A stretch of DNA of 49,931 bases from a bacterium (GTDB lineage Bacteria > Verrucomicrobiota > Verrucomicrobiia > Limisphaerales > UBA11358). A model generated the notes under the pieces. It ran no database searches, was not told the origin of the DNA, and saw only the letters and a list, made by a program, of their open reading frames with translations. Positions 19,667 to 31,197 of the stretch are shown here, in pieces; the first letter of the stretch is position 1, and each line of letters begins with the position of its first letter. The stretch spans positions 1 through 49,931 of the forward strand of contig JAKALA010000024.1 in NCBI GenBank assembly GCA_021813325.1, in the 5' to 3' direction. The translations under genes were made by a program, and so were the position numbers.

Positions 19667-20596
19667 ATGGAAAAAGTTGTCATCATTGGTTCCGGTCCCG
19701 CCGGATGGACGGCGGCATTATACACGGCGCGGGCGCAACTCGCCCCGCTGGTGTTGACTGGCAAACAACCGGGCGGATTGCTGACCACAACCAGTATCGT
19801 GGAAAACTTTCCCGGTTTTCCCGAGGGTGTGGACGGTTTTGAACTGATGACCCGCATGCAAAAACAGGCAGAGCGTTTCGGGGCCAAAACCAGTTTTGGC
19901 TTGGTGGAATCCGTCGATTTCACCAAGCGTCCGTTTACCTTGATCGTCGATGGCGAACCGGTTCAAACCGAAACCGTCATTATTGCCACCGGCGCCGGAC
20001 ACAAGCACCTGGGCGTTCCCGGCGAACATGAATTGGAAACCAAAGGGACGACGTATTGCGCGACCTGTGACGGCGCGTTGCCGGTTTTTCGGAATCAACC
20101 GCTGGTCGTGGTCGGCGGCGGCGACTCCGCCTGCGAAGAAGCGCAGTATCTGACGCGTTTTGGCTCCATCGTTTATCTGGTGCATCGCCGCGATTCGCTG
20201 CGCGCCTCGAAAATCATGGCCGAACGCACGCTGGCGAATCCAAAAATCAACCCCATCTGGGATTCAGCCGTAACGGAAGTCCTCGACGTGAAACAGGACA
20301 AAGTGATCGCAGTTAAACTCAAAAATCTAAAAAACGGGGCCGAAAGCATTTTGGCATGCGCCGGAGTTTTCATCGCCATTGGTCATGTGCCCAACACCGA
20401 GTTGTTCAAAGGCAAAATCAACCTGGACGAAAATGGCTTCATTGTGCCGCAACAAGGAACCATGACCAACGTGACTGGAGTCTTTGTGGCTGGCGATTGC
20501 GCCGATCATGTCTATCGTCAGGCCATCACCGCCGCGGGAGCCGGCTGTGCGGCGGCCATCGATGCGGAACGCTTTTTGGCGACCCAGCGTCAGTAG
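19667..20596 (+). CDS. trxB: Thioredoxin reductase
   Basis: TrxB reduces thioredoxin with NADPH through FAD and a redox disulfide. The 309-residue protein has the low-molecular-weight type's layout: FAD-binding GSGPAGWTAALYTARA (8-23), the active-site pair Cys131/Cys134 in TYCATCDGA (129-137), NADPH-binding VVGGGDSACEEA near 147-158 with HRRDSLRAS after it, and the C-terminal FAD motif GVFVAGDCAD followed by ITAAGAGCAAAIDAERFL. All catalytic residues are present. It starts at ATG 19667 without a clear Shine-Dalgarno sequence; an AACTTGTAAGTT palindrome lies about 30 bases upstream. A palindromic repeat separates it from the next gene. Confidence 0.96.
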   Translation: MEKVVIIGSGPAGWTAALYTARAQLAPLVLTGKQPGGLLTTTSIVENFPGFPEGVDGFELMTRMQKQAERFGAKTSFGLVESVDFTKRPFTLIVDGEPVQTETVIIATGAGHKHLGVPGEHELETKGTTYCATCDGALPVFRNQPLVVVGGGDSACEEAQYLTRFGSIVYLVHRRDSLRASKIMAERTLANPKINPIWDSAVTEVLDVKQDKVIAVKLKNLKNGAESILACAGVFIAIGHVPNTELFKGKINLDENGFIVPQQGTMTNVTGVFVAGDCADHVYRQAITAAGAGCAAAIDAERFLATQRQ

Positions 20597-20979
20597 CCTG
20601 AAAATCCAAAGCCAGGCCACGTTTCGCCGGTTGGAAAATCCCAACATAACCCAACAGTTGGCAAACCGGGGCGGGTAATCAATTAATTTTAACCCGAACT
20701 CCGAAGTTGGGGAGCGCAGACCGCTGGTCTGCGGTGTTTGGCGGCCCGCCAAACACGGCGTCCAATCATGATCTTCACCGAAAGAAACGGGGAAATATTG
20801 GTTCAACAAGGTTTTCGGGTTTGAATTCCAGCAAAACCCAGTGGCGAAGGTTGCTTTGCCAGGGAAACGCGCTCGACAATGACGGGAATCTTGGAGTAAA
20901 GAATAGAGCCAATAAAACCCCCGTGCTTTACTCCAGCCCGTCCGGCGAGTGAGGCAGATGTAAATCAAAGGAACGGCTC
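20597..20979. other. Intergenic region holding a palindromic repeat
   Basis: The gap between trxB and the Tat-exported aldo/keto reductase contains the repeat described at 20693-20819 and no supported gene. The remaining bases show a short inverted repeat (GGGTTT/AAACCC near 20817-20840). The Shine-Dalgarno AAGGA for the next gene lies at about 20968-20972. Confidence 0.5.
20693..20819 (+). repeat. Palindromic dispersed repeat, copy 1 (one-ended)
   Basis: This 127-base stretch is the reverse complement of 28814-28940 with about 14 differences by eye. Reading inward from 20693: CCCGAACTCCGAAGTTGGGGA, then a hairpin with arms CGCAGACC/GGTCTGCG and loop GCT (20715-20733), then a hairpin with arms GTGTTTGGCGG/CCGCCAAACAC (20734-20756), then a conserved core to 20819. 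Relative to copy 2, one stem pair changes from A-T to G-C on both arms, which keeps pairing. The second end present in copy 2 is missing here. Confidence 0.85.
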
Positions 20980-21885
20980 ATGAAAATCAAACGGCGAGAA
21001 TTCATCAAAAAGTCGGCGATCGGTGTGGGCGGTGTGTTGGTCAGCGCACATCTGGGAATGGCGGAAACCGCTCCCCAAAAATTCCATGATCCGTATGCGA
21101 TGGTTCCGCTGGGCAAAACCGGACTAAAATTTTCCCGCCTCTGCATGGGCACCGGCACCCATGGCAGCAACCGCGAATCAAACCAAACCCGCAAGGGACG
21201 CAGTGCCTTTCTGAAACTGCTCCGCGCGGCCCATGAGCGCGGAGTGAGAACGTATGATTTGGCCGATCTTTATGGCTCCCACACCTACGTGCCTGAAACC
21301 TTGGACGGGTTGTCACGCGACAGCTACACGCTCATCACCAAAATCTGGTGGGCTTACGGCGGCATTCCCGAAACCGAACGCCCGCCGGCGGATGTTGTGG
21401 TCGCCCGCTTTTTAAAGGAACTCAAAACCGATTACATTGATCTGCTTCTGCTCCATTGCGTCATGGCCCCGAATTGGCCGGAGCAATTGCGTTCGCAAAT
21501 GGAAATTCTCACCAAGCTCAAGGCGGAAGGAAAAATCCGCGCGCTCGGCGTGTCCTGCCATTCGCTGGCGGCCTTGGACGCGGCAGCGGCGGAACCCTGG
21601 GTGGAATCGGTCCACACGCGGATCAATCCGTATGGCATGAGCATGGACGGTTCGCCTGATCAAGTGGTCCCGATCCTGAAAAAAATCCACGCGGCTGGCA
21701 AAGGCGTTGTGGGAATGAAGCTGATTGGCGAAGGCCGCTTGCGCAACGATGACGCGAAGCGCAATGAATCGGTGAAATTCGCCTTGGATTCAGGCTGCGT
21801 GGATGTGTTGAACGTGGGCTTTGAATCGGTGGCCGAAATCGATGATTTTGCCGACCGCGTGCGCAAAGTTGCCCTGCCGGCTTAA
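20980..21885 (+). CDS. Tat-exported aldo/keto reductase
   Basis: This 301-residue oxidoreductase carries a twin-arginine signal (KRREFIKK at 4-11, hydrophobic stretch, Ala28), so it should be exported folded with its cofactor. The barrel starts at MVPLGKTGLKFSRLCMGTGT. The catalytic tetrad is complete: Asp93 and Tyr98 (YDLADLYG), Lys121 (ITKIWW) and His159 (LLLLHC). LKAEGKIRALGVSCHS and the later KGVVGMKLIGEGRL fit the family. The substrate is unknown. AAGGA lies eight bases before the ATG. It is followed 47 bases later by hisH on the same strand, probably only by chance. Confidence 0.88.
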   Translation: MKIKRREFIKKSAIGVGGVLVSAHLGMAETAPQKFHDPYAMVPLGKTGLKFSRLCMGTGTHGSNRESNQTRKGRSAFLKLLRAAHERGVRTYDLADLYGSHTYVPETLDGLSRDSYTLITKIWWAYGGIPETERPPADVVVARFLKELKTDYIDLLLLHCVMAPNWPEQLRSQMEILTKLKAEGKIRALGVSCHSLAALDAAAAEPWVESVHTRINPYGMSMDGSPDQVVPILKKIHAAGKGVVGMKLIGEGRLRNDDAKRNESVKFALDSGCVDVLNVGFESVAEIDDFADRVRKVALPA

Positions 21886-21932
21886 GCGGATTAATCATTT
21901 CAACCGTTCGCCTGCTCAAGTATGCTCCGGGC

Positions 21933-22553
21933 GTGATTGCCTTGCTTGATTACGGTTCTGGAAACCTGCGCAGCGTCCACAAATCATTGCTCAAAGTGGG
22001 CGCAAAAGTGCGTCTGGTTCAAAGGCCGGAGGAAATGACCGATGCCCGCGCCTTGGTGCTGCCCGGGGTGGGCGCGTTTGACGACTGCATCGCCGCCCTG
22101 CGCAAACAGGAACTCTTGGAAGCCTCGCGCGACTTCATTAAAACCGGCAGGCCGTTTCTGGGCATTTGCGTCGGCTATCAAGCGTTGTTCGAGAAAAGCG
22201 AGGAGTTCAATTCCTGCGCGGCCGGGCTGGGGATCTTCGCCGGAAAGGTCGTCCGTTTTGCAGATCAACCGGGATTGAAAATCCCGCAGATCGGCTGGAA
22301 CCAGATTGAAATCGTCAGCCCCGAATGCCCGCTGTATCGCGGCATCGCCAGCGGCAGCTTTGTTTATTTCGTGCACAGCTTTTATCCGCAACCGGTGGAT
22401 GCCGGCATCATTGCCACCCGGACCGAATACGGAAACACGTTCGCGTCGTCAATCTGGCGTGACAATGTTTTCGCCACGCAATTTCACCCGGAAAAGAGCC
22501 AGAAAGTGGGGCTGCAACTTTTAAAGAACTTCGTTGATTTAAGCGAGGTTTAG
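21933..22553 (+). CDS. hisH: Imidazole glycerol phosphate synthase, glutaminase subunit
   Basis: HisH releases ammonia from glutamine for HisF, which forms IGP and AICAR in histidine synthesis. The 206-residue length is typical. The glutaminase triad is Cys79 (LGICVGYQALF), His185 and Glu187 (QFHPEKS). The N-terminal LLDYGSGNLRSV and LPGVGAFDDC are conserved. The start is GTG 21933, the only one giving the standard N terminus. hisF is not adjacent; hisG lies 1.4 kb away on the opposite strand, so the his genes are scattered here. Confidence 0.95.
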   Translation: MIALLDYGSGNLRSVHKSLLKVGAKVRLVQRPEEMTDARALVLPGVGAFDDCIAALRKQELLEASRDFIKTGRPFLGICVGYQALFEKSEEFNSCAAGLGIFAGKVVRFADQPGLKIPQIGWNQIEIVSPECPLYRGIASGSFVYFVHSFYPQPVDAGIIATRTEYGNTFASSIWRDNVFATQFHPEKSQKVGLQLLKNFVDLSEV

Positions 22554-22737
22554 CGAATCCAGTATGCCTCGAACAGATACATACTTACTCAGAAACCGTA
22601 ACCCGGGATAATTTATTATACAGACGGATTAAGGCTTGTAGCTGGTTTTAACTCCAACCCAAATCACGGGCACTTCCAAAAGTCCCAGGCCAGTCCAACG
22701 AGCGGATACCCAGCACACCGGTCGGGTGCAAATTAGT

Positions 22738-23124
22738 TCAGTCGATTTTTTCGCGTCCGCTGAAACCGCTGTCGAGATCGTGCCAGAATTCGACCACCTC
22801 TTCGTCGGATTCCCAGCAAAGAAAAACTTCTTTGCCGCCAATCACGGCGGGAAAATCCACCAGGCCGCGTGACAGATCCTTGATGAAGATTTCGCGACGC
22901 TGAAATTCCAGCAGCAGTTGCTGCATGGCAGCCAGCGTGCGAATCCAGCGATTAACCGTGTCTCCACCCGTATCCTGCCCTTCGGCGTTGATCCCGCTCA
23001 GTCGCTTGTCAAACCGTTCAGCCTCGACCCGTAAGCGGTTTAAATCCGTCAGCCACTCGCGAAGCTGAGGCACCAACGCTTGCGCCTCCTCACGCGTGTA
23101 ATGCTTGCGGTATCGATGGTCCAT
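22738..23124 (-). CDS. DUF2203 family protein
   Basis: This 128-residue soluble protein matches the DUF2203 family of unknown function. It opens with YTREEAQALVPQLREWLTDL, a helix that recurs in the family, then a coiled-coil-like helix (about 25-48), and ends with GLVDFPAVIGGKEVFLCWES followed by DEEVVEFWHDLDSGFSGRE, the conserved C-terminal part. In members this end is the best conserved, which suggests a binding site, but no activity is known. It lies 75 bases from the small basic protein gene, same strand. Confidence 0.85.
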   Translation of the reverse strand: MDHRYRKHYTREEAQALVPQLREWLTDLNRLRVEAERFDKRLSGINAEGQDTGGDTVNRWIRTLAAMQQLLLEFQRREIFIKDLSRGLVDFPAVIGGKEVFLCWESDEEVVEFWHDLDSGFSGREKID

Positions 23125-23199
23125 GGCAAAAAAAAGACCGTTCGCGAGGCTGCCGGAACAACCAGCGCGAACGGCTGTAAATCACATTGCGGTGACAGA

Positions 23200-23301
23200 T
23201 TACTTCTGCCAGGTGCGCTTCTTGTGACGATTCAAGCGCAGCTTCTTGCGCCGTTTATGTTTGTTGATTTTTGCCTTACGGCGTTTTTTCAGTGATCCCA
23301 T
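23200..23301 (-). CDS. Small COX24/mS38-like ribosome-associated protein
   Basis: This 33-residue protein is extremely basic: [20 protein letters not shown] followed by [13 protein letters not shown]. It matches the AURKAIP1/COX24 C-terminal domain (K-x-R-x-x-K-M/I-x-K-H-K-x-R-K...), whose mitochondrial form is ribosomal protein mS38 and whose bacterial form binds the small ribosomal subunit decoding region in Bacteroidota-type ribosomes. The whole protein is this domain. ATG at 23301 and TAA at 23200-23202. It lies between hisG and the DUF2203 gene, transcribed the same way. The family assignment is by motif recognition; ribosome binding in this organism is inferred. Confidence 0.85.
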
Positions 23302-23368
23302 AATTGGATAAGAATTTATGTAACAAATTGGCGGCGATAACGCCACTCAAAAATGACGGGTTGATGGC

Positions 23369-24244
23369 TTAATAAACAACCTTGTTCAGCGGGTATTCAA
23401 TGATGCCTTCAGCCCCGGCAGTTTTGAGTTTGGGGATAATATCGCGCACCACCTTTTCATCAATGATCGTCTCAACGGCCACCCAGCCTTCCAGGCTTAA
23501 ATTGGAGATGGTGGGATTGCGGAGCGCCGGCAGCGTGGTCAGCAACGTTTGCAGATTCTTTTCGGCAATGTTCATCTTGAGTCCCACTTTGGCTTCGGCA
23601 TCCAACGCGCCCTTCAGCAACAAGGCCAGGGTTTCGATCTTCTTCCGCTTCCAGGAATCCTGCCAGGCCGCCAGATTGGAAATCAGCCGCGGGGTGGAAC
23701 TCAACAGCTCATCGACAATGCGCAATTTGTTGGCTTTCAGCGACGAGCCGGTTTCCGTGACTTCCACAATGGCATCCACCAATTCATGGGCTTTAACTTC
23801 GGTCGCCCCCCATGAGAACTCGACCTCGGCTTTGACACCGTGTTTCTTGAGATATTTTTTGGTGAGATTGACCACCTCGGTGGCGATGCGCTTGCCTTGC
23901 AAATCTTTCACGCTCTTGACCGGTGAATTTTCCGGAACACACAACACCCAGCGGGCCGGGCGGCGCGAAACTTTGCTGAAGAGAAATTCCCCAACCTCGT
24001 GGACTTTCGAGCCATTCTCAATGATCCAATCATGCCCGGTGATGCCGCAGTCCAAATAGCCATGTTCCACATAGCGGCTGATTTCCTGCGCGCGGATCAG
24101 GCGGATTTCCATCTCGTCGTCATCCACATAGGGAATGTAAGACCGACTGCTCACCTGAATGTTAAACCCAGCCTTGGCCAGCTTCTCAATGGTGGCCTCC
24201 TGCAAGCTGCCCTTGGGCAGACCAAACCTTAGTTTCTTACTCAT
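23369..24244 (-). CDS. hisG: ATP phosphoribosyltransferase, long form
   Basis: HisG condenses ATP and PRPP, the first and feedback-controlled step of histidine synthesis. The 291-residue product is the long form, including the C-terminal regulatory domain (about 210-291, [20 protein letters not shown] ... [11 protein letters not shown]), so no HisZ partner is needed and histidine inhibition is expected. The N terminus [12 protein letters not shown] and the PRPP loop [14 protein letters not shown] (about 165-178) are diagnostic. I start at ATG 24244; five extra codons upstream are not conserved. It is probably monocistronic or leads into the small basic protein gene 67 bases on. Confidence 0.95.
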
Positions 24245-24373
24245 AATATTTAAATTCAAACAACCAATTACAGCATTCTGGAATGCCTATTTCCAAATTT
24301 AAATCTCGCTGGCGTGTTCCATCCCAGTTCAAGAATGGGACTTGTTTGGTCGGGTTGGAAACAGAGCAGACGT

Positions 24374-24898
24374 TTATTTCACGCTAACAATCAGCCAATC
24401 ATCGCCCGTTTTTTTCAATGTGAAAGTATATGAACTCACGGCGGTAGAACCCGCATACCAGCGTCCGGTCGCTTCCACGCTTCCATCCGCAGCCGGTTCC
24501 GCAACCTCCACCCCAAGAATGACGACCGGCTTGCCGGTATCACGATCCAAAGGAGTTTGATTGGTGCGAAGATCAATGTGATCGCTCCGCTTGATCGGCG
24601 GAGTGTGGTCGGGATACTTTTTGATCATGGCATCAACCAGAGAATCGTCGGTCTGGAGAAATACCGCCGAATATTTGCCGGCATCCGGAAGCGGATGCGC
24701 CAGGAGATAACCGGCCACCACCGCATCGATGGTTTGCTCGTCGCTTTTTGACAATTGTGCCGTCGCCGCCGTTCCATCGAGGACGGACGCCGGAATCTTG
24801 GCCTGGCTGAGGAAAACAATCTTTTCCTTGTCGGAGGAACAGCCCGCAGCCACCACGGCCAGCGTCAATGCGCAAACTAAATTTAATTTTAAGTTCAT
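24374..24898 (-). CDS. Predicted lipoprotein, unknown function
   Basis: I do not recognise this 174-residue protein. It has a lipoprotein signal (hydrophobic stretch with lipobox VVAAGCS, Cys19), so it should be membrane-anchored outside the cytoplasm. The mature part contains DEQTIDAVVAGYLLAHPLP, a helical region, then GKPVVILGVEVAEPAADGSV and SYTFTLKKTGDDWLIVSVK, which looks like the last strands of an NTF2/DUF4878-like fold. Its ATG overlaps the stop of purN (ATGA at 24895-24898), so translation is probably coupled to purN. Confidence 0.72.
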   Translation of the reverse strand: MNLKLNLVCALTLAVVAAGCSSDKEKIVFLSQAKIPASVLDGTAATAQLSKSDEQTIDAVVAGYLLAHPLPDAGKYSAVFLQTDDSLVDAMIKKYPDHTPPIKRSDHIDLRTNQTPLDRDTGKPVVILGVEVAEPAADGSVEATGRWYAGSTAVSSYTFTLKKTGDDWLIVSVK

Positions 24899-25518
24899 GA
24901 TTTTTTCCAAATCACCCGGCGGCCCACCACCGAGATTTCGTTTCGAGCCAGCGCAGCCACACATTGGGGATACAATTCATGTTCGGCGGCATGAATGCGC
25001 TGATGCAAGCTCTCCGGAGTATCTTCATCCAAAACCGGAACCGCCGACTGGCCGATAATCGCCCCGGAATCCACTCCCGCATCCACAAAGTGCACCGTGC
25101 AGCCGGCCACCTTGACGCCGTGATCAAGCGCCTGCCGCCACGATTCCAACCCCGGAAAACAAGGCAGCAATGACGGATGAATGTTCACAATCCGTCCTTC
25201 GTATGCGCGAAGGAAATCGCCCTTCAAGACCCGCATAAAGCCTGCCAGGACCACCAGATCCACCTGTGCCGTCTGTAGCGCCGAAACAAACGCGCGTTCG
25301 GCTACCTCATCCAGTTTCGTGCGAAACTTTCCAGGCGGAATAAAGCGCGCTGGAATGCTCCGGTTCCGAGCGTGCGTTAAAATTCCGGCGGACTCCACAT
25401 CGCTCAACACCACGGCCATTTCCGCAGGGATTTTTCCGGCAGCCACCGCCTCGGCAATGGCTGCGAAATTCGAGCCTTTGCCGGAGCCAAGCACGCCGAT
25501 GCGGAATGAAGTGTTCAC
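24895..25518 (-). CDS. purN: Phosphoribosylglycinamide formyltransferase
   Basis: PurN transfers the formyl group of 10-formyltetrahydrofolate to GAR in purine synthesis. The 207-residue protein has the N-terminal phosphate loop GSGKGSNF (11-18) and the catalytic residues Asn112 and His114 (VNIHPSLLPCFPG) and Asp150 (HFVDAGVDSG). The start is GTG 25518. It overlaps the next lipoprotein gene by four bases. It begins just after the terminator that closes the ribosomal protein cluster, in the place where rplB would be in the usual gene order. Confidence 0.95.
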   Translation of the reverse strand: MNTSFRIGVLGSGKGSNFAAIAEAVAAGKIPAEMAVVLSDVESAGILTHARNRSIPARFIPPGKFRTKLDEVAERAFVSALQTAQVDLVVLAGFMRVLKGDFLRAYEGRIVNIHPSLLPCFPGLESWRQALDHGVKVAGCTVHFVDAGVDSGAIIGQSAVPVLDEDTPESLHQRIHAAEHELYPQCVAALARNEISVVGRRVIWKKS

Positions 25519-25613
25519 TGTGGTTTGAATAACAAAAAAATTTCCAGAAACAAAGTCGAAACGTTGAGTTTGCCGCGCTCAGAACGGAAACAACCAATGA
25601 GATTCACATCAAA

Positions 25614-25649
25614 AATAAAAAACCGGCACGGAATTGATCCCATGCCGGT
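25614..25649 (-). terminator. Intrinsic terminator after rplW
   Basis: Read on the minus strand, the stem arms ACCGGCA and TGCCGGT (25649-25643 and 25628-25622) continue inward with G-C and wobble pairs to a TCAA loop, about 12 pairs in all. A run of six T follows directly. It ends the rpsJ-rplC-rplD-rplW transcript. Confidence 0.85.
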
Positions 25650-25666
25650 CATGATTTAGAGGTCGT

Positions 25667-25948
25667 TTAGGTCAAAATAATCTTGTCGCCTTCTTTCAAG
25701 GTAACAATTGCTTTTTTCCAGGCATTGGTAGTGCCCTGCTGCAATGTGCGCTTGCGGCGCACTTTGCCCCGGACATTCAACGTGTTCACCTTGGTGACTT
25801 TGACCTTGAACAGTTCCTGAACAGCCTGGCGGATTTCCGGCTTGCTCGCCCGGCGATCGGCCACAACCGTGTATTGATTATATTTTTCGCCCTGGCGGGT
25901 GCCCTTTTCGGTCAGGCGAACCGTCTTGATAATTTCAAAAGCGTTCAT
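25667..25948 (-). CDS. rplW: Ribosomal protein uL23 (L23)
   Basis: L23 lies at the exit of the peptide tunnel on the large subunit, where trigger factor and SRP dock. The 93-residue protein shows the family layout: TVVADRRASKPEIRQAVQELFKVKVTKVNTLN in the first half, then a basic extended loop (KVRRKRTLQQGTTNAWKKAI) that lines the tunnel, and VTLKEGDKI at the end. It starts two bases after the rplD stop. It is followed by a terminator rather than rplB. Confidence 0.95.
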   Translation of the reverse strand: MNAFEIIKTVRLTEKGTRQGEKYNQYTVVADRRASKPEIRQAVQELFKVKVTKVNTLNVRGKVRRKRTLQQGTTNAWKKAIVTLKEGDKIILT

Positions 25949-25950
25949 GG

Positions 25951-26580
25951 TTATTCCTTATTCAAACGGGCTTCGACGTTTTCAAACGCGCTCTTGGTGA
26001 AGAGCAATTTGTCCGGACGCAGCACGTCGTATGTGTTCAGCGTGGCGCTGGTGGTCACATCCACAAATGAGATATTACGAGCCGCTAGCAACAGGTTTTT
26101 GTCTTCCACACCGTTGGAAACCACCAAGGTGGTTCCGTTCAGATCAAGCGCGTCGATGATTTTGACGAAATCCTTGGTCTTGTGTGAACTCAACTTCAGA
26201 TCGTCCACCACCACCACATCGCCGGCTTTGAGCCGTTCGCTCAACGCCTTGCGGAGCGCGAGCTGCTTGGTGTTTTTGGAGACTTTCTTGCTAAAGTCAC
26301 GGGGTTTCGGACCGAACACCACGCCGCCACCCACCCACAAGGGTGACTGGAACGAGCCGGCGCGCGCACGGCCGGTGCCTTTCTGGCGCCAAGGTTTTTT
26401 GTTCGTGCCGACCACTTCGCCGGCAGTCTTGGTGCAGGCCGTGCCACTGCGTTGCGCCGCGCGATACGCGGTCACGACATCGTGAACAGCCTGGGTGCCC
26501 TTGCCATTTTCAATAATGGCAAATTTAACCTCGTGTTCGCCCTGATCTTTTCCGGCGGTATTTTTAATGGAAATTTTCAT
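25951..26580 (-). CDS. rplD: Ribosomal protein uL4 (L4)
   Basis: L4 is a large-subunit protein with a long loop reaching into the peptide tunnel; in E. coli it also represses the S10 operon. The 209-residue length is standard. The conserved loop is seen in RSGTACTKTAGEVVGTNKKP and WRQKGTGRARAGSFQSPLWV, followed by GGGVVFGPKPRDFSKKVSK. ATG at 26580 lies nine bases after the rplC stop. Whether autogenous control exists here cannot be told from sequence alone. Confidence 0.96.
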   Translation of the reverse strand: MKISIKNTAGKDQGEHEVKFAIIENGKGTQAVHDVVTAYRAAQRSGTACTKTAGEVVGTNKKPWRQKGTGRARAGSFQSPLWVGGGVVFGPKPRDFSKKVSKNTKQLALRKALSERLKAGDVVVVDDLKLSSHKTKDFVKIIDALDLNGTTLVVSNGVEDKNLLLAARNISFVDVTTSATLNTYDVLRPDKLLFTKSAFENVEARLNKE

Positions 26581-26589
26581 GGCTTGTAA

Positions 26590-27297
26590 TTATTTCTTGG
26601 CGGAAGCCTTGGCATCAGCCTTCTTCTTGCCAGACGCGGCAACCGCAACCGGCTTCCAACCTTTTGGACGTTTCTTGGATTCACGGATCACGACGTAATC
26701 GCCTTCAGAACCGGGAATCGCACCTTTGATTAACAACAAATTGTCCGACTCCAGCACCTGGATCACTTCCAGGTTTTGGGTCGTCCGCGTCACCTGCCCC
26801 ATGTGACCAGGCATGCGCATCCCGCGCATGACCGTGCCTGGGAACAAACGCTGACCGATGGCACCAGACCGGCGATGCCAGCCCTTGGCGCCGTGGGTGG
26901 AATCACCACCAGCAAAACGATGGCGCTTCACCACACCTTCAAAACCACGGCCCTTGGTGGTGCCGATGGCATCAATGAAATCACCGGGCGCAAAGAGCGT
27001 CGGGCCGACCACATCGCCAGCCTTCACTTCCTTCGAGAAGTTGCGAAACTCCTTGATGCGCTTGACGGCCACCCCGTTGTGTTTCTTGATATGACCGATG
27101 AGCGGCTTGCTCAGGCGCTGTTCCTTCTGATCGTCAAAGCCCAGCTGAACGGCATTGTAGCCATCCTTGCCCGCCTGCGTCTTGACCTGCAAAACGCGAT
27201 TCGGGCCACAGAGGACGACCGTGACCGGGACCACCACACCTTGCGCGTCATAAACGCGGGTATGGCCAAGTTTTTTTCCAATAAGTCCGAGTGGCAT
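26590..27297 (-). CDS. rplC: Ribosomal protein uL3 (L3)
   Basis: L3 is an early-assembling large-subunit protein near the peptidyl transferase centre. At 235 residues it is longer than the usual 205-215 because of a lysine/alanine-rich tail (about 208-235, WKPVAVAASGKKKADAKASA). The core holds MPLGLIGKKLGHTRVYD, the GTTKGRGFEGVVKRH loop and the GAKGWHRRSGAIGQ ... GMRMPGHMG region. A perfect AAGGAG sits a few bases before the ATG and overlaps the end of rpsJ, so the two genes are translationally linked. Confidence 0.96.
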   Translation of the reverse strand: MPLGLIGKKLGHTRVYDAQGVVVPVTVVLCGPNRVLQVKTQAGKDGYNAVQLGFDDQKEQRLSKPLIGHIKKHNGVAVKRIKEFRNFSKEVKAGDVVGPTLFAPGDFIDAIGTTKGRGFEGVVKRHRFAGGDSTHGAKGWHRRSGAIGQRLFPGTVMRGMRMPGHMGQVTRTTQNLEVIQVLESDNLLLIKGAIPGSEGDYVVIRESKKRPKGWKPVAVAASGKKKADAKASAKK

Positions 27298-27307
27298 GGT
27301 GTTCTCC

Positions 27308-27613
27308 TTAAATCTTGATGGTGATGTCCACGCCGGCGGGCAAATTGAGCTTCTTCAATTCGTCCACGGTTTTCGCGGTCGGATCGAGAATGTCGATCAA
27401 ACGCTTGTGGGTGCGTTGTTCAAAAGTTTCCTGGGATTTCTTGTCCGAATGCGGCGAGCGTTGGACAGTGAAGCGCTCCACGCGGGTTGGGAGCGGGATT
27501 GGACCTGCGACGCGGGCACCGGTGCGTTTGACGGTGTCAGCAATTTCGCGGGCCGACTGGTCTATGACCCGGAAGTCATAGGCCTTGAGGCGAATGCGGA
27601 TGCGTTGTGCCAT
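27308..27613 (-). CDS. rpsJ: Ribosomal protein uS10 (S10)
   Basis: S10 is a small-subunit head protein and, with NusB, a transcription antitermination factor. The 101-residue protein contains [20 protein letters not shown] and the conserved loop [20 protein letters not shown], followed by [20 protein letters not shown]. It is the first gene of a four-gene cluster (rpsJ-rplC-rplD-rplW) and has a good promoter upstream. Confidence 0.96.
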
Positions 27614-27644
27614 ACAAAGAACGATTGTCTGTTAATGGATTGAT

Positions 27645-27678
27645 CAAATCCGCTTTCCACAACATGAAAAGCGGACGT
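27645..27678 (-). promoter_or_regulatory. Hairpin in the rpsJ leader
   Basis: Between the rpsJ promoter and start codon the minus strand can form a stem TCCGCTTT/AAAGCGGA around a short loop. It could be a ribosomal-protein or processing site in the leader, but nothing specific (for example a known L4 target) can be shown. It is not followed by a T run, so it is not a simple terminator. Confidence 0.4.
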
Positions 27679-27680
27679 GA

Positions 27681-27708
27681 ATCATAGCAAGTCAGCTTCC
27701 ATGTGCAA
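27681..27708 (-). promoter_or_regulatory. Sigma-70-type promoter for rpsJ cluster
   Basis: On the minus strand TTGCAC (27708-27703) and TATGAT (27686-27681) are separated by 16 bases and lie about 70 bases before the rpsJ ATG. Both hexamers are one base from consensus. This fits transcription of the S10 cluster from its own promoter, separate from fusA. Confidence 0.7.
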
Positions 27709-28000
27709 TATAATTTTCGGAAAATTTAGTGTTGGTGATTCACCGAGTTGACTTGAGCAGCTTGAAGACTATCCACGAATGCGCTTTTTTTGATCTTAAG
27801 ACAACTGGCGTCCGCCCTTGCCTGTCCCCTTGAATAAATTTACCGAAAACCGACAACACAAAATGTCCTAAAAGTGATCAACAACGTCCCATGGAGCGAT
27901 AGAGATTTTCCCATATCAGGGTCATACTGACCTAAAGTTTTTGGGAAAATTAAGCACTAAGAGGAATAAAAATCAATCAGCACCCGAAAACCATAAAATT
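27709..28000. other. Upstream region of the PEP-CTERM gene
   Basis: This stretch lies between the divergent rpsJ promoter and the PEP-CTERM gene start. It is AT-rich compared with its neighbours and contains an imperfect GGTCATACTGACC palindrome at about 27921-27933, which could be an operator. No convincing promoter hexamer pair was found. The coding frame is open back to 27941, but only the part from ATG 28001 has a signal peptide at its start. Confidence 0.35.
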
Positions 28001-28651
28001 ATGAAAGCGTCCAATCTTAACAGCTCTGGAAAATTTTGGAGCATAATTGCCGTTTCGGTGGCGAGCATCGCTTGCGCAAATGCAGGGCTTGTAAATGTAA
28101 CCACCGCCAGTTTACCAGATTTAATCACTGTTTCGCCCCATCCAGCCCCCACAGCATCGGAAGCTTTGGTGGAGAAAGGTGCCAGTGGCAACCCTAGCGC
28201 CAGCGACGAGGCAACCTTGTTAGCGAATCAACTTCCTTCAAATTCCCCGTTTGCTTTTTTACTTTCGGGGACGTCAACAACTCCAGATTTGAGCGCTTAT
28301 GGCGGAGACTATTTGGTAGTGCATTGGGGTGTGGGCGAAGCCGGCAAGTTTTTCACTTCTAGTCTGAAGGGTGGATTTTACGGAATTTTTTATATCGAGC
28401 CAAACACCGGAACCGTCACAATCAACCGGCCTTACTTTGAAGGCTATTATAAAAACGGCAACAGCATTAAAGACGCGACGGCACAAGACCCGTTATCCGT
28501 CGGCAACCTCTCCGGCTGGAATATCTTTGAAGGAAAGCCAACAACATCAAGCGTTCCCGAACCGTCCACTATCGTTGCGGGTGCCTTGCTGTTACTCCCC
28601 TTTGGCGTGAGCACGCTCCGAATTTTGCGTAAGAACCGCGCTACAAACTAA
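28001..28651 (+). CDS. PEP-CTERM sorting domain protein
   Basis: This 216-residue exported protein has a signal peptide (about 1-29, ending ANA) and a C-terminal PEP-CTERM anchor: the motif VPEPST, a hydrophobic segment (IVAGALLLLPFGVSTL) and a basic end (RILRKNRATN). Such proteins are sorted by exosortase and usually become surface or extracellular polysaccharide-associated. The middle (YGGDYLVVHWGVGEAGKFFT, SSLKGGFYGIFYIEPN) has no named domain that I recognise. Start at ATG 28001. It is transcribed against the ribosomal genes on both sides, ends in a strong terminator and is AT-richer than its neighbours, which suggests a later insertion between fusA and rpsJ. Confidence 0.9.
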   Translation: MKASNLNSSGKFWSIIAVSVASIACANAGLVNVTTASLPDLITVSPHPAPTASEALVEKGASGNPSASDEATLLANQLPSNSPFAFLLSGTSTTPDLSAYGGDYLVVHWGVGEAGKFFTSSLKGGFYGIFYIEPNTGTVTINRPYFEGYYKNGNSIKDATAQDPLSVGNLSGWNIFEGKPTTSSVPEPSTIVAGALLLLPFGVSTLRILRKNRATN

Positions 28652-28680
28652 ACAGTAGTTTTCAGTTTTCCAAGCAGCCA

Positions 28681-28712
28681 AACAGGTCAACCATTCGGTT
28701 GGCCTGTTTTAT
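28681..28712 (+). terminator. Intrinsic terminator after the PEP-CTERM gene
   Basis: Arms AACAGGTCAACC and GGTTGGCCTGTT pair over 12 positions (one G-T wobble) around the loop ATTC, followed by a T run. Confidence 0.85.
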
Positions 28713-28753
28713 CTTATCCAATCGCAATCCAGTTCAGTTTTCCCTGATCTCAA

Positions 28754-28940
28754 CCCGAAAAACGAAGTTAGAATGGGGACCACACGCGGCTCGCGTGTGG
28801 TTTTCGGCGGCCGGCCGAAAAACCCGTTGAACCAATATTTCCCCGTTTCGTTCGGTGAAGATAATGGTTGGACGCCGTGCTTGGCGGGCCGCCAAACACC
28901 GCCGGCCAGCGGCCTGATCTCCCCAATTTCGGAGTTCGGG
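28754..28940. repeat. Palindromic dispersed repeat, copy 2 (two-ended)
   Basis: This 187-base element has matching ends: CCCGAAAAACGAAGTT...GGGGA on the left and, inverted, CCCGAACTCCGAAATTGGGGA on the right. Inward of each end lie two hairpins. Left: arms ACCACACGCG/CGCGTGTGGT with loop GCT (28779-28801), then TTTTCGGC/GCCGAAAA (28801-28821). Right, read from that end: GGCC/GGCC with loop GCT (28904-28914), then GTGTTTGGCGG/CCGCCAAGCAC with one mismatch (28877-28899). The core between them (about 28822-28876) is nearly identical to copy 1. It shows no transposase, and its translated core has no recognisable domain. Confidence 0.85.
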
Positions 28941-28946
28941 ATCAAA

Positions 28947-28980
28947 CTAAAAAAGTCCGGGAAGCTTCCTTCCCGGACTT
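28947..28980 (-). terminator. Intrinsic terminator after fusA
   Basis: On the minus strand the perfect 12-base arms AAGTCCGGGAAG and CTTCCCGGACTT (28980-28969 and 28964-28953) close a four-base loop and are followed by a run of T. It separates fusA from the downstream repeat and ribosomal genes. Confidence 0.9.
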
Positions 28981-29007
28981 GGAGATTTGTTCAGAGTAAA
29001 TGTCTGG

Positions 29008-31197
29008 TTATGAGCGAGCCGCCGGTTTCTTCGCGGCTTGATCCAGAATGGCCGTCAGCACGCTGTTGGGCACCTGCTCGAACGTGAGCGGTTCCATGGA
29101 GTAGCTGGCGCGGCCCTTGGAGAGCGAGCGGATCGCGGTGGCGTAGCCGAACATTTCGGCCAGCGGCACCTGCGCGTTGAGAATGGTCTGGCCATTTTTG
29201 GCATCAATGCCGCCGATAATGCCGCGACGACGATTGATGTCGCCCAGCAGATCGCCCTGGTATTCGTCAGGCGTGGTGACTTCCACCTTCATGACCGGTT
29301 CCAGGAGAATCGGGCTGGCCTTCTTGAAGGCGTCTTTGAGCGCAAAAATACCGGCCATCTTGAACGCCAGTTCGTTGGAGTCAACTTCATGGAAGCTGCC
29401 ATCCACGACTTGCGCCTTGAGGTCAATTACCTGATACCCGGCATACACACCGCTCTTGATGGCTTCCTCGATGCCGTCAATGACCGCCGGAATGTATTCC
29501 TTGGGAATGGTGCCGCCGACAATCTTGTTCTCGATTTCGATGCCCTTGCCCTTTTCGTTCGGCTCGATCTTGATGCAGGCGTGGCCGTATTGACCACGAC
29601 CGCCGGACTGGCGGATGAACTTGCCTTCGCCGTCGGCTGCCTTGGTGATGGTTTCGCGGTAGGCGATCTGCGGCGCGCCGGTGTTGGCCTCGACTTTGAA
29701 TTCGCGGCGGAGACGGTCAATGATGATTTCGAGATGCAACTCGCCCATGCCCGCGATGAGCAACTGGCCGGTTTCCTCGTTGGTGAAGCAGCGGAATGTC
29801 GGATCTTCTTCCGCCAGGCGCTGGAGGCCTTCGGACATCTTGTCGCGATCAGCCTTGGTCTTCGGTTCCACAGCCATGCTGATGACCGGCTCGGGGAACG
29901 TCGGCGGTTCGAGCGTCACGTCGAAGGATTCATCGCACAAGGTGTCACCGGTGGTGATGTTGCGCAGACCGACAAGTGCGGCAATGTCACCAGAATACAC
30001 CCGTTCAATGTCTTTGCGTTCACTGCCTTGAATGACCATCAGGCGGCTGACGCGTTCGCGCTTGCGCGTGCGGGGATTGTAAATGGTGTCACCCTTGCCG
30101 AGCGAACCGGAGTAAACACGGAAGAACACCAGCTTGCCGGCATAGGGATCGGTCCAGAGCTTGAACGCCAGCGAGCAAAACTTGGCGTTATCGTCCGTCG
30201 GCACGACAACCTTGTTTTCCGTGCCGGGTTCGGTGCCTTCAGCAGCAGGAACGTCCAGCGGTCCGGGCAGGTAATCGACCACCGCGTCCACAAGCATCTG
30301 CACGCCTTTTTTCTTAAAGGCAGAACCGCAGAGCACGGGAACGAATTCAATCTTGCAGGTGAGGCGACGGATGGCCGCCTTGAGCGTGGCTGCATCAATC
30401 GGCTTTTCTTCCAGCACCAGCTCGGCAATGGCGTCATCCTTGTTGGAGACGGCTTCGATCAATTCATCGAGCGCCTGCTTGGCGCGTTCCTTGTGTTCAG
30501 CCGGGATTTCACGCACTTCATAATTCAAACCTTCGTTGGCCACGTCGCCTTCGCCGAACCAGTAACATTTCTGGTTCACGATATCGATCAGTCCGGAAAA
30601 TTTGTCCTCGGCGCCGATGTTGAGGAAAATCGGATACGCATACGCCCGCAGCTTGGTGCGCATGTCATTCAACGCGTTCTCAAAATTCGCGCCCGTGCGG
30701 TCCATCTTGTTGACGAACGCAATGCGCGGCACCTTGTATTTGGTGGCCTGACGCCAGACGGTTTCCGATTGCGGCTGCACACCCGCCACGCCGCAGAATA
30801 CTGCCACCGCGCCGTCGAGCACGCGCATCGAGCGTTCGACTTCGGCGGTGAAGTCCACGTGCCCGGGAGTGTCAATGATGTTGATGCGGTGAGGAACGTT
30901 ATTAAACGCCTTGTAAATCTCGTTTTCACCGGGTTTGGACTGCTTCTGGGTCCAAAAACAGGTCACGGCCGCGGAAGTGATCGTAATACCGCGTTCCTTT
31001 TCCTGCTCCATCCAGTCCGTCACCGTGTTGCCGTCATCCACGTCACCGATCTTGTGAATCAAGCCGGTGTAGAAGAGGATACGTTCCGTGGTGGTCGTCT
31101 TGCCGGCGTCGATGTGCGCGGCAATACCGATATTACGGGTGCGTTCGAGAGTGTATTCGCGGTTGGGCGAATTGACTGGTTTGGCGTCTGCTGACAT
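29008..31197 (-). CDS. fusA: Translation elongation factor G
   Basis: EF-G drives ribosomal translocation and, with RRF, ribosome recycling, using GTP. The 729-residue protein has all five domains: G1 AHIDAGKTTTTE (27-38), G2 region around GITITSAAV, G3 DTPGHVDF, G4 NKMD and G5 GSAFKKKGV. Domain IV follows from about 500 (GRGQYGHACIKIEP, GGTIPKEYIPAVIDGIEEA), and domain V contains MFGYATAIRSLSKGRASYSM. It looks like the main housekeeping copy. It has its own terminator and is separated from rpsJ by 1.4 kb that includes an oppositely oriented gene, so it is not in the usual str-S10 arrangement. Confidence 0.97.
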   Translation of the reverse strand: MSADAKPVNSPNREYTLERTRNIGIAAHIDAGKTTTTERILFYTGLIHKIGDVDDGNTVTDWMEQEKERGITITSAAVTCFWTQKQSKPGENEIYKAFNNVPHRINIIDTPGHVDFTAEVERSMRVLDGAVAVFCGVAGVQPQSETVWRQATKYKVPRIAFVNKMDRTGANFENALNDMRTKLRAYAYPIFLNIGAEDKFSGLIDIVNQKCYWFGEGDVANEGLNYEVREIPAEHKERAKQALDELIEAVSNKDDAIAELVLEEKPIDAATLKAAIRRLTCKIEFVPVLCGSAFKKKGVQMLVDAVVDYLPGPLDVPAAEGTEPGTENKVVVPTDDNAKFCSLAFKLWTDPYAGKLVFFRVYSGSLGKGDTIYNPRTRKRERVSRLMVIQGSERKDIERVYSGDIAALVGLRNITTGDTLCDESFDVTLEPPTFPEPVISMAVEPKTKADRDKMSEGLQRLAEEDPTFRCFTNEETGQLLIAGMGELHLEIIIDRLRREFKVEANTGAPQIAYRETITKAADGEGKFIRQSGGRGQYGHACIKIEPNEKGKGIEIENKIVGGTIPKEYIPAVIDGIEEAIKSGVYAGYQVIDLKAQVVDGSFHEVDSNELAFKMAGIFALKDAFKKASPILLEPVMKVEVTTPDEYQGDLLGDINRRRGIIGGIDAKNGQTILNAQVPLAEMFGYATAIRSLSKGRASYSMEPLTFEQVPNSVLTAILDQAAKKPAARS

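Follow-up and report, generated by a model that had tools for sequence, protein, structure and literature searches.

The window analysed here, a 49,931-nucleotide stretch of a draft verrucomicrobial genome (4.28 Mb, 123 contigs), holds two copies of a short palindromic element. The longer copy is 187 bases (28754-28940), with CCCGAA at its left end and TTCGGG at its right. It is bordered by putative target-site duplications, CTCAA on the left (28749-28753) and ATCAA on the right (28941-28945), which have TCAA in common and carry no strand. The left terminal inverted repeat (28754-28771, forward strand; CCCGAAAAACGAAGTTAG) corresponds to one end of a DDE_Tnp_1_4 insertion sequence, and the right one (28923-28940, reverse strand) reads CCAATTTCGGAGTTCGGG on the forward strand. 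A preliminary description of this locus had reported symmetric ends with inward GGGGA, a GCT-loop hairpin and then a GGC-rich second hairpin on each side, and the sequence of 28754-28940 bears this out.

The left REP-like module (28775-28828, forward strand; model R1, 71.7 bits, E 1.2e-14) has GGGGACC in place of GGGGAGC and two hairpins. Hairpin 1 (28779-28801, forward strand) has the form ACCACACGCG-GCT-CGCGTGTGGT and is supported by sequence, fold and R1 match; hairpin 2 (28800-28822, forward strand) has the form GTTTTCGGCG-GCC-GGCCGAAAAA, and its first two bases are also able to close hairpin 1. A central imperfect hairpin (28825-28874, forward strand; CGTTGAACCA ... TGGTTGGACG) appears in both DNA and RNA folds, and related sequence is present in the cores of other genomes. 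The right REP-like module is inverted (28871-28924, reverse strand; R1, 62.3 bits, E 1.7e-12), and its GGGG overlaps the inner end of the right terminal repeat. Its R1 match places hairpin 3, the second hairpin of the module, at 28877-28899 and hairpin 4, with the GCT loop, at 28901-28917 (both reverse strand). The hairpin arms had been described as self-complementary throughout, which is true only in part, as two of the seven pairs of hairpin 4 are broken in this copy. The only frame of at least 80 amino acids over the copy is one of 104 amino acids.

The second window copy (20693-20819, reverse strand; flanks TCAAA and TTAAA) is a short form in which the left third, with the left module, is gone and the junction lies at a repeated word, CCGAAAACC. 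The one REP-like module that it keeps is at 20709-20762 (forward strand; R1, 72.0 bits, E 1e-14), and the two window copies share an inverted match of 136 nt at 88%.

Terminal repeats, flanking words and a partner insertion sequence

The expectation that the genome would hold many copies was borne out by 23 matches in about 21 places, four of them cut by contig ends (L019, L023, L024, and L026) and possibly parts of the same copies. Aligned with their flanks, the copies are common up to CCCGAA/TTCGGG and divergent beyond, apart from a brief A/T-rich word at either flank. The flanking 5-mers of every one of the 13 two-ended copies agree with at most one mismatch (six exact, seven one off). When the same 5-mers were paired at random, a mean of 7.7 agreed at that threshold and none of 20,000 shuffles reached 13; for exact agreement, the mean was 2.1 (P = 0.0045 for 6). 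This test covered 13 of the 21 places, leaving out the four at contig ends and four partial copies (L029 to L032), and left flanks were placed by eye in four copies (L017, L027, L028, and window 20693). The duplicated words mostly fit YTNAR (TTAAA, TTGAA, TTTAA, and TTAAG).

Three copies have the internally deleted form, namely, the short window copy and L027 and L028, which carry a deletion identical to that of the window copy between different flanks. All three lack the left module and retain the terminal inverted repeats and duplication-like flanks, so the hairpins of the left module are probably dispensable for DDE-type movement.

The end pattern AACCCGAANNCCGNAGTTGG, allowing up to three mismatches, was found 70 times in the genome against 12 times for the reversed control, with some of the 70 belonging to other short repeats. 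Six such loci (L095, L096, L099 to L101, and L105) represent a second short repeat family of about 180 to 200 bp, with similar ends, another interior and left ends reading AACCTAAACTCCGCAGTTGG or AACCCAAAAGCCGCAGTTGG. At L097 (476-499), two element ends lie back to back with nothing between them (TTAACCCGAACTCCGAAGTTCGGGATTAA), perhaps the end product of deletion. With terminal inverted repeats, target-site duplications and many dispersed copies without coding capacity, the reading of the outer layer as a MITE is strongly supported.

A candidate source of the transposase is an insertion sequence at L114, with left end CCCGAACTCCGATATAGG, right end CCTGAACTCCGAAGTTGG and TTAAA on both sides. 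The frame between its ends (388 amino acids; PF13701, DDE_Tnp_1_4) is shortened, covering profile positions 7 to 344 of 435, with the remainder in another frame. A full PF13701 frame lies at L119 between matching CCGGAACG-type ends with equal 5-bp flanks, and L115 encodes a relative of 472 amino acids. We take PF13701 to be the IS1380 group, which makes short A/T-rich duplications and has kinship to piggyBac. Contig ends of the window genome match the L114 insertion sequence at 100% over 636 nt (L088), 100% over 137 nt (L090) and 99% over 132 nt (L089), so the ends of the partner insertion sequence are present in this genome, split by the assembly. Three loci once considered a further MITE family (L088, L089, and L098) were ruled out as such, being right ends of the partner insertion sequence (L098, 87.5% over 88 nt). 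An intact transposase between CCCGAA-type ends was seen neither at L114 nor in the draft assembly of the window genome, where insertion-sequence ends break off at contig edges and the PF13701 frames are partial. L114 (genome G147) and L088 (window genome, contig C68) are identical over 636 nt and come from assemblies filed in different families, which may reflect recent transfer or a misbinned contig. Most of the comparison loci come from metagenome assemblies.

Folding, covariation and distribution of the module

The single strand of 28754-28940 folds better than all 200 dinucleotide shuffles (DNA z, −3.1; RNA z, −4.85). The module has a plan of 54 nt, GGGGAGC followed by two hairpins, and the element has two in inverted orientation. 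The change from A-T to G-C on both sides of a stem, reported from the two window copies, is real and falls at pair 12-20; there the 20.7-kb copy has A-U, and G-C is present in all 11 others of the 12 right-hand modules counted. Selection on the folded strand had been argued from that change. Two copies alone fail to show it, because covariation within the window genome's own copies has no significant excess (the score was reached by 143/500 and 48/500 shuffles). Pair 10-22 is unpaired in 4/11 left and 4/12 right modules there.

The argument from paired changes fares better in the wider family. Among 80 distinct modules (sequence-only profile search, MAFFT alignment), 93.1% of cells are paired against 77.4% in shuffles. 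Both sides have changed in 13 of the 17 stem pairs, supplying the further compensatory changes that the preliminary description had proposed to look for. Double-change cells number 201; shuffles gave 58.4, and sliding the partners gave no more than 61. All these figures keep some bias from a profile seed set chosen partly for pairing. The module thus has the palindromic hairpin and conserved paired stem of a REP. The GCT loop, described as kept, is indeed constant in the 24 module rows from the window genome; loops in the wider family are mostly KCN (GCT, GCC, TCT, and TCC).

A search with the element gave matches in 16 of 59 related genomes, including the window's own, and in 7 of 24 genera; many of these matches span the left module only. 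One of them (G058, L044) seems to be a chance hit in coding sequence. Across the phylum, a covariance model matched at least 16 of 288 genomes (E ≤ 1e-4, including the window's own) in at least 13 of 152 genera; these counts are lower bounds, as at most 20 candidates were scored per genome and six matching genomes had 20 or more. The module model also matches genomes outside the class. Some genomes carry module pairs of 75 to 148 bp without CCCGAA-like ends.

Full cores elsewhere comprise 21 rows, or 20 distinct cores (L035 is L142). Sixteen of the 20 are without CC-type ends. The other four (L033, L034, L038, and L046, in four genomes) have CC-type ends and 5-bp duplications with at most one mismatch, a combination found in 15 of 702 randomly placed windows of equal size. 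These four cores are 149 to 152 nt long, against 150 nt in the window, and their central parts are related to it. Their ends are of the CCCGAACTCCGAAG type in L038 and CCGGAACGATGCAGTTG-like in the other three, the latter matching PF13701 elements, for example L119 (CCGGAACGATTCAGTTG, flanked on each side by CTGAG). This implies two separate uptakes of the core or an exchange of ends. Y1_Tnp genes were found in 13 of the 14 module-bearing genomes searched. In one genome without a Y1_Tnp match (G053), single modules (L154 and L158) adjoin another repeat (CCCAGGGCGTTGCCCTGGGCTAAC).

RAYT genes, the tag and insertions within housekeeping genes

A link to a REP-associated tyrosine transposase (RAYT) had been proposed, and it holds in relatives of the window genome. 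A scan of 33 Y1_Tnp loci gave a module match at E ≤ 0.1 in three (L201, L206, and L207), and L206, outside the class, has one module on each side of the gene. None of the five Y1_Tnp loci of the window's draft genome has a match at that threshold, and with no module near them, these genes were rejected as direct partners. RAYT relatives were gathered by scanning GTDB genomes with an alignment of three proteins, and the best 80 of 410 loci were kept (L214 is the L206 locus); the module model had been built before any RAYT locus was scanned for modules. Among these best 80 of 410, inverted modules flank the RAYT gene on both sides at 18 loci, including the query's own, and lie within 60 nt of the gene at 15 of the 18; at least one module, on any side, is present at 29 loci, as counted from the 60 strongest of 80 model hits (E ≤ 8.7e-4). 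At L226 (1426-2008), the modules face outward, unlike the 18 inverted pairs. The query RAYT passes NCBIfam REP_Tyr_transpos (88.6 bits; cut-off, 80) and Pfam Y1_Tnp; of 30 long RAYT frames scanned, 11 reach that cut-off and the rest score 60 to 79 bits. The nearest solved chain is TnpA-REP 4er8, a weak match (E 0.019).

The tag here is GGAG within GGGGAGC, and GGGTAGC occurs at L229, L231, and L041. At L207 (500-1920, genome G020), four-hairpin arrays tagged GTAGC lie on both sides of the RAYT, and by eye their plan is that of the window core with the canonical tag. The sections of PMC3733652 on REPs cover REPs with GTAG tags, their inverted dimers, neighbouring RAYT genes and degenerate forms of the tag such as GYAG and GTGG. 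Set beside those descriptions, the bridging GGGTAGC and GTAGC tags suggest that the modules are REP elements whose tag, GGAG, is a variant of GTAG. The window element has two such modules in inverted orientation (28775-28828 and 28871-28924), as in a REPIN, here as apparent MITE cargo.

Many of the RAYT genes lie within housekeeping genes. Of the 24 loci closest to the query (L214 to L237, within the best 80 of 410), 22 have a RAYT that shares one uninterrupted frame with alaS, thrS, recG, or metH, counting L217, where the contig ends 114 nt downstream and the upstream side only is visible. The exceptions are L224, within alaS and out of frame upstream, and L229, a RAYT without a host gene. 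NCBIfam identified 16 of the 22 hosts (15 matched in at least two stretches, L217 in one); those of L219, L220, L222, L231, L233, and L234, together with L224, were named from flanking residues only. NCBIfam was run on 30 of 38 long frames picked from the 80 loci (best 80 of 410), and 27 of these 30 also carry another family, including priA, purH, rdgB, leuS, and ispG, with no second family among the frames scanned at L251, L263, and L289. Beyond the closest 24 loci, RAYTs in housekeeping-gene frames were recorded at L240, L241, L243, L253, L265, L267, L270, L276, and L281. The modules themselves are translated, typically into residues that resemble GSARVPRAVSGVAPETS ahead of the RAYT and RRDAEESTRDARAPQ behind it. 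In the L206 genome (94% complete), the split alaS is the one alaS, the only other match scoring 32 bits. Another RAYT lies in frame inside clpB in the window genome (L011, 1200-2200, contig C26), with hairpins that by eye are of the GTAG type (GTAGCTGCGACGCC...); model R1 finds no match there.

Within a given gene, the same sites are hit repeatedly. In the window genome, alaS (C79; L294 and L297) has a longer loop at the site of the relatives' RAYT; a REP insertion there was considered and rejected, as the loop is not a REP. The alaS site is thus a variable loop, given this different insert. A tree of 34 RAYTs, with good support for 10 of its 31 inner branches, requires 13 changes of host gene and site, against a minimum of 8 and a shuffled mean of 22, and two sisters (L218 and L220; support, 100/99) occupy two different alaS sites, indicating that the elements move but are clustered. 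REPs located within genes are reported in PMC3733652; no report of whole RAYT elements in frame within genes was found in the available parts of the literature on RAYTs and housekeeping genes.

Origin of the two-layered element

We consider it very probable that 28754-28940 is a non-autonomous element of two layers, in which a DDE-type MITE carries a REPIN-like core. The ends, flanking duplications, matching insertion-sequence ends, covariation and module-flanked RAYT genes are all readable from sequence. A DDE_Tnp_1_4 transposase, of what we take to be the IS1380 type, would act in trans on the inverted ends of about 18 bp, cut the element out and insert it, mostly into YTNAR-like sites, duplicating 5 bp, and we infer that the enzyme of the insertion sequence moves the window copy. 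The ancestor of the core would have been the substrate of a RAYT (Y1, HUH) reading the tag and a single-strand hairpin, since the same module bounds RAYT genes in related bacteria. Such a RAYT would bind and cleave the module, and arms could drift with pairing kept because tag and hairpin would be what it reads; reading of tag and folded hairpin is described for RAYT systems in the relevant sections of PMC6006769 and PMC8266576. Capture of the core by the transposon ends, or its placement between them, would have joined the two layers. Spread of the window copy looks to have been driven by the outer ends, because the terminal repeats match those of DDE-type elements and, with the 5-bp flanks, are kept in the form without the left module; the earlier proposal of movement by an enzyme that recognises structure explains the spread less well and is not upheld.

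About evenly balanced, in our judgement, is a more far-reaching reading: that the module is the terminal sequence of a RAYT element of Verrucomicrobiota living, intein-like, in the frames of essential genes, with its hairpins as translated linkers, so that element and host gene would be translated into a single protein, and that a gene-less dimer of it came to lie between DDE ends, apparently twice, giving a chimera of 187 bp that would combine HUH mobility (single-strand, structure-reading) with DDE mobility (double-strand, sequence-reading).

Four other accounts were weighed. A REPIN moved only by a structure-reading RAYT, with CCCGAA ends and duplications coincidental or added later, would suit the core, an inverted module pair of the kind that bounds RAYT genes, as well as the 16 of 20 cores elsewhere without DDE-type ends and the Y1_Tnp genes in 13 of 14 genomes searched. 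To our knowledge, HUH transposases of the RAYT kind are not expected to produce duplications, yet the flanking 5-bp words agree in every two-ended copy; the short form without a left module stands in three separate insertions, and the five Y1_Tnp loci of the window's draft genome include no module-flanked RAYT, all of which makes this account decidedly improbable. Least probable of the four is an ordinary IS1380-type MITE with incidental hairpins and no REP or RAYT history: terminal repeats, duplications, copy number and matching insertion-sequence ends would suffice to explain the spread, but the same inverted modules bound RAYT genes at 18 of the best 80 of 410 loci, are found in other families of the order with no such ends around them and have model matches outside the class.

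The strong RNA fold (z, −4.85) would also fit a regulatory RNA or a bidirectional terminator, maybe as a secondary use of a mobile element, and 7 of the 13 copies with frames on both sides lie between convergent frames in a crude reading of long frames. Relatives of the module nevertheless sit in frame inside genes, where a terminator would harm, two hairpins are lost in three copies and Rfam gave a single chance-level match over window positions 20000 to 30000 (a CRISPR repeat, 20523-20568; E 0.17), so we hold this role to be improbable. Template switching during replication of quasi-palindromes is a rather unlikely sole source of the paired arm changes, although it is compatible with a REPIN-like core in a MITE and may add to them: it yields two-sided changes without selection, and the unpaired states of pair 10-22 would fit it. 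Against it stand several stem-pair types kept across many lineages, with 93.1% of cells paired, and the position of the module beside transposase genes expected to need the hairpin.

IS1380-type MITEs are short and geneless, share terminal inverted repeats with insertion sequences and make 5-bp A/T-rich duplications. The window element resembles them in each of these respects and differs in its interior, an organised REP dimer rather than an insertion-sequence remnant. We know of no Rickettsia palindromic elements inside transposon ends. They are likewise palindromic repeats in frame inside genes, and the passages on them in PMC3733652 state no transposase link. REPs, REPINs and REPtrons, as covered in the relevant parts of PMC3733652, PMC6006769, and PMC8266576, share with the element a tagged hairpin, inverted dimers and adjoining Y1 genes, and these are seen in gene frames too; REP tag variants and stem positions with complementary changes are also described in those parts of PMC3733652. 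The element differs from them in its GGAG (GGGGAGC) tag, theirs being GTAG or GTGG, in having two hairpins to a module and four or five to a dimer across several Verrucomicrobiota families, and in a core wrapped in DDE-type transposon ends. TIRtrons are RAYT-like genes bounded by inverted repeats, some of which share GGGGWSAS, and according to the same parts of PMC3733652 these repeats have no relation to REPs; GGGGAGC fits GGGGWSAS inexactly, and GGGTAGC intermediates exist here. A DDE-wrapped REP dimer with a GGAG tag was not found in the available parts of the literature on REPs, REPtrons, and MITEs. The statement that no described family has this design is therefore right in part, for the combination and the tag; its constituents, REPs, REPtrons, and MITEs, are described.

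The element would join two transposition chemistries and suggests that hairpin repeats of a single-strand transposase can ride double-strand transposons. The drifting paired arms supply many natural sequences for working out which hairpin features a RAYT recognises, and the in-frame RAYTs offer a test bed for how a selfish gene may reside within alaS, thrS, or recG and leave the cell alive.
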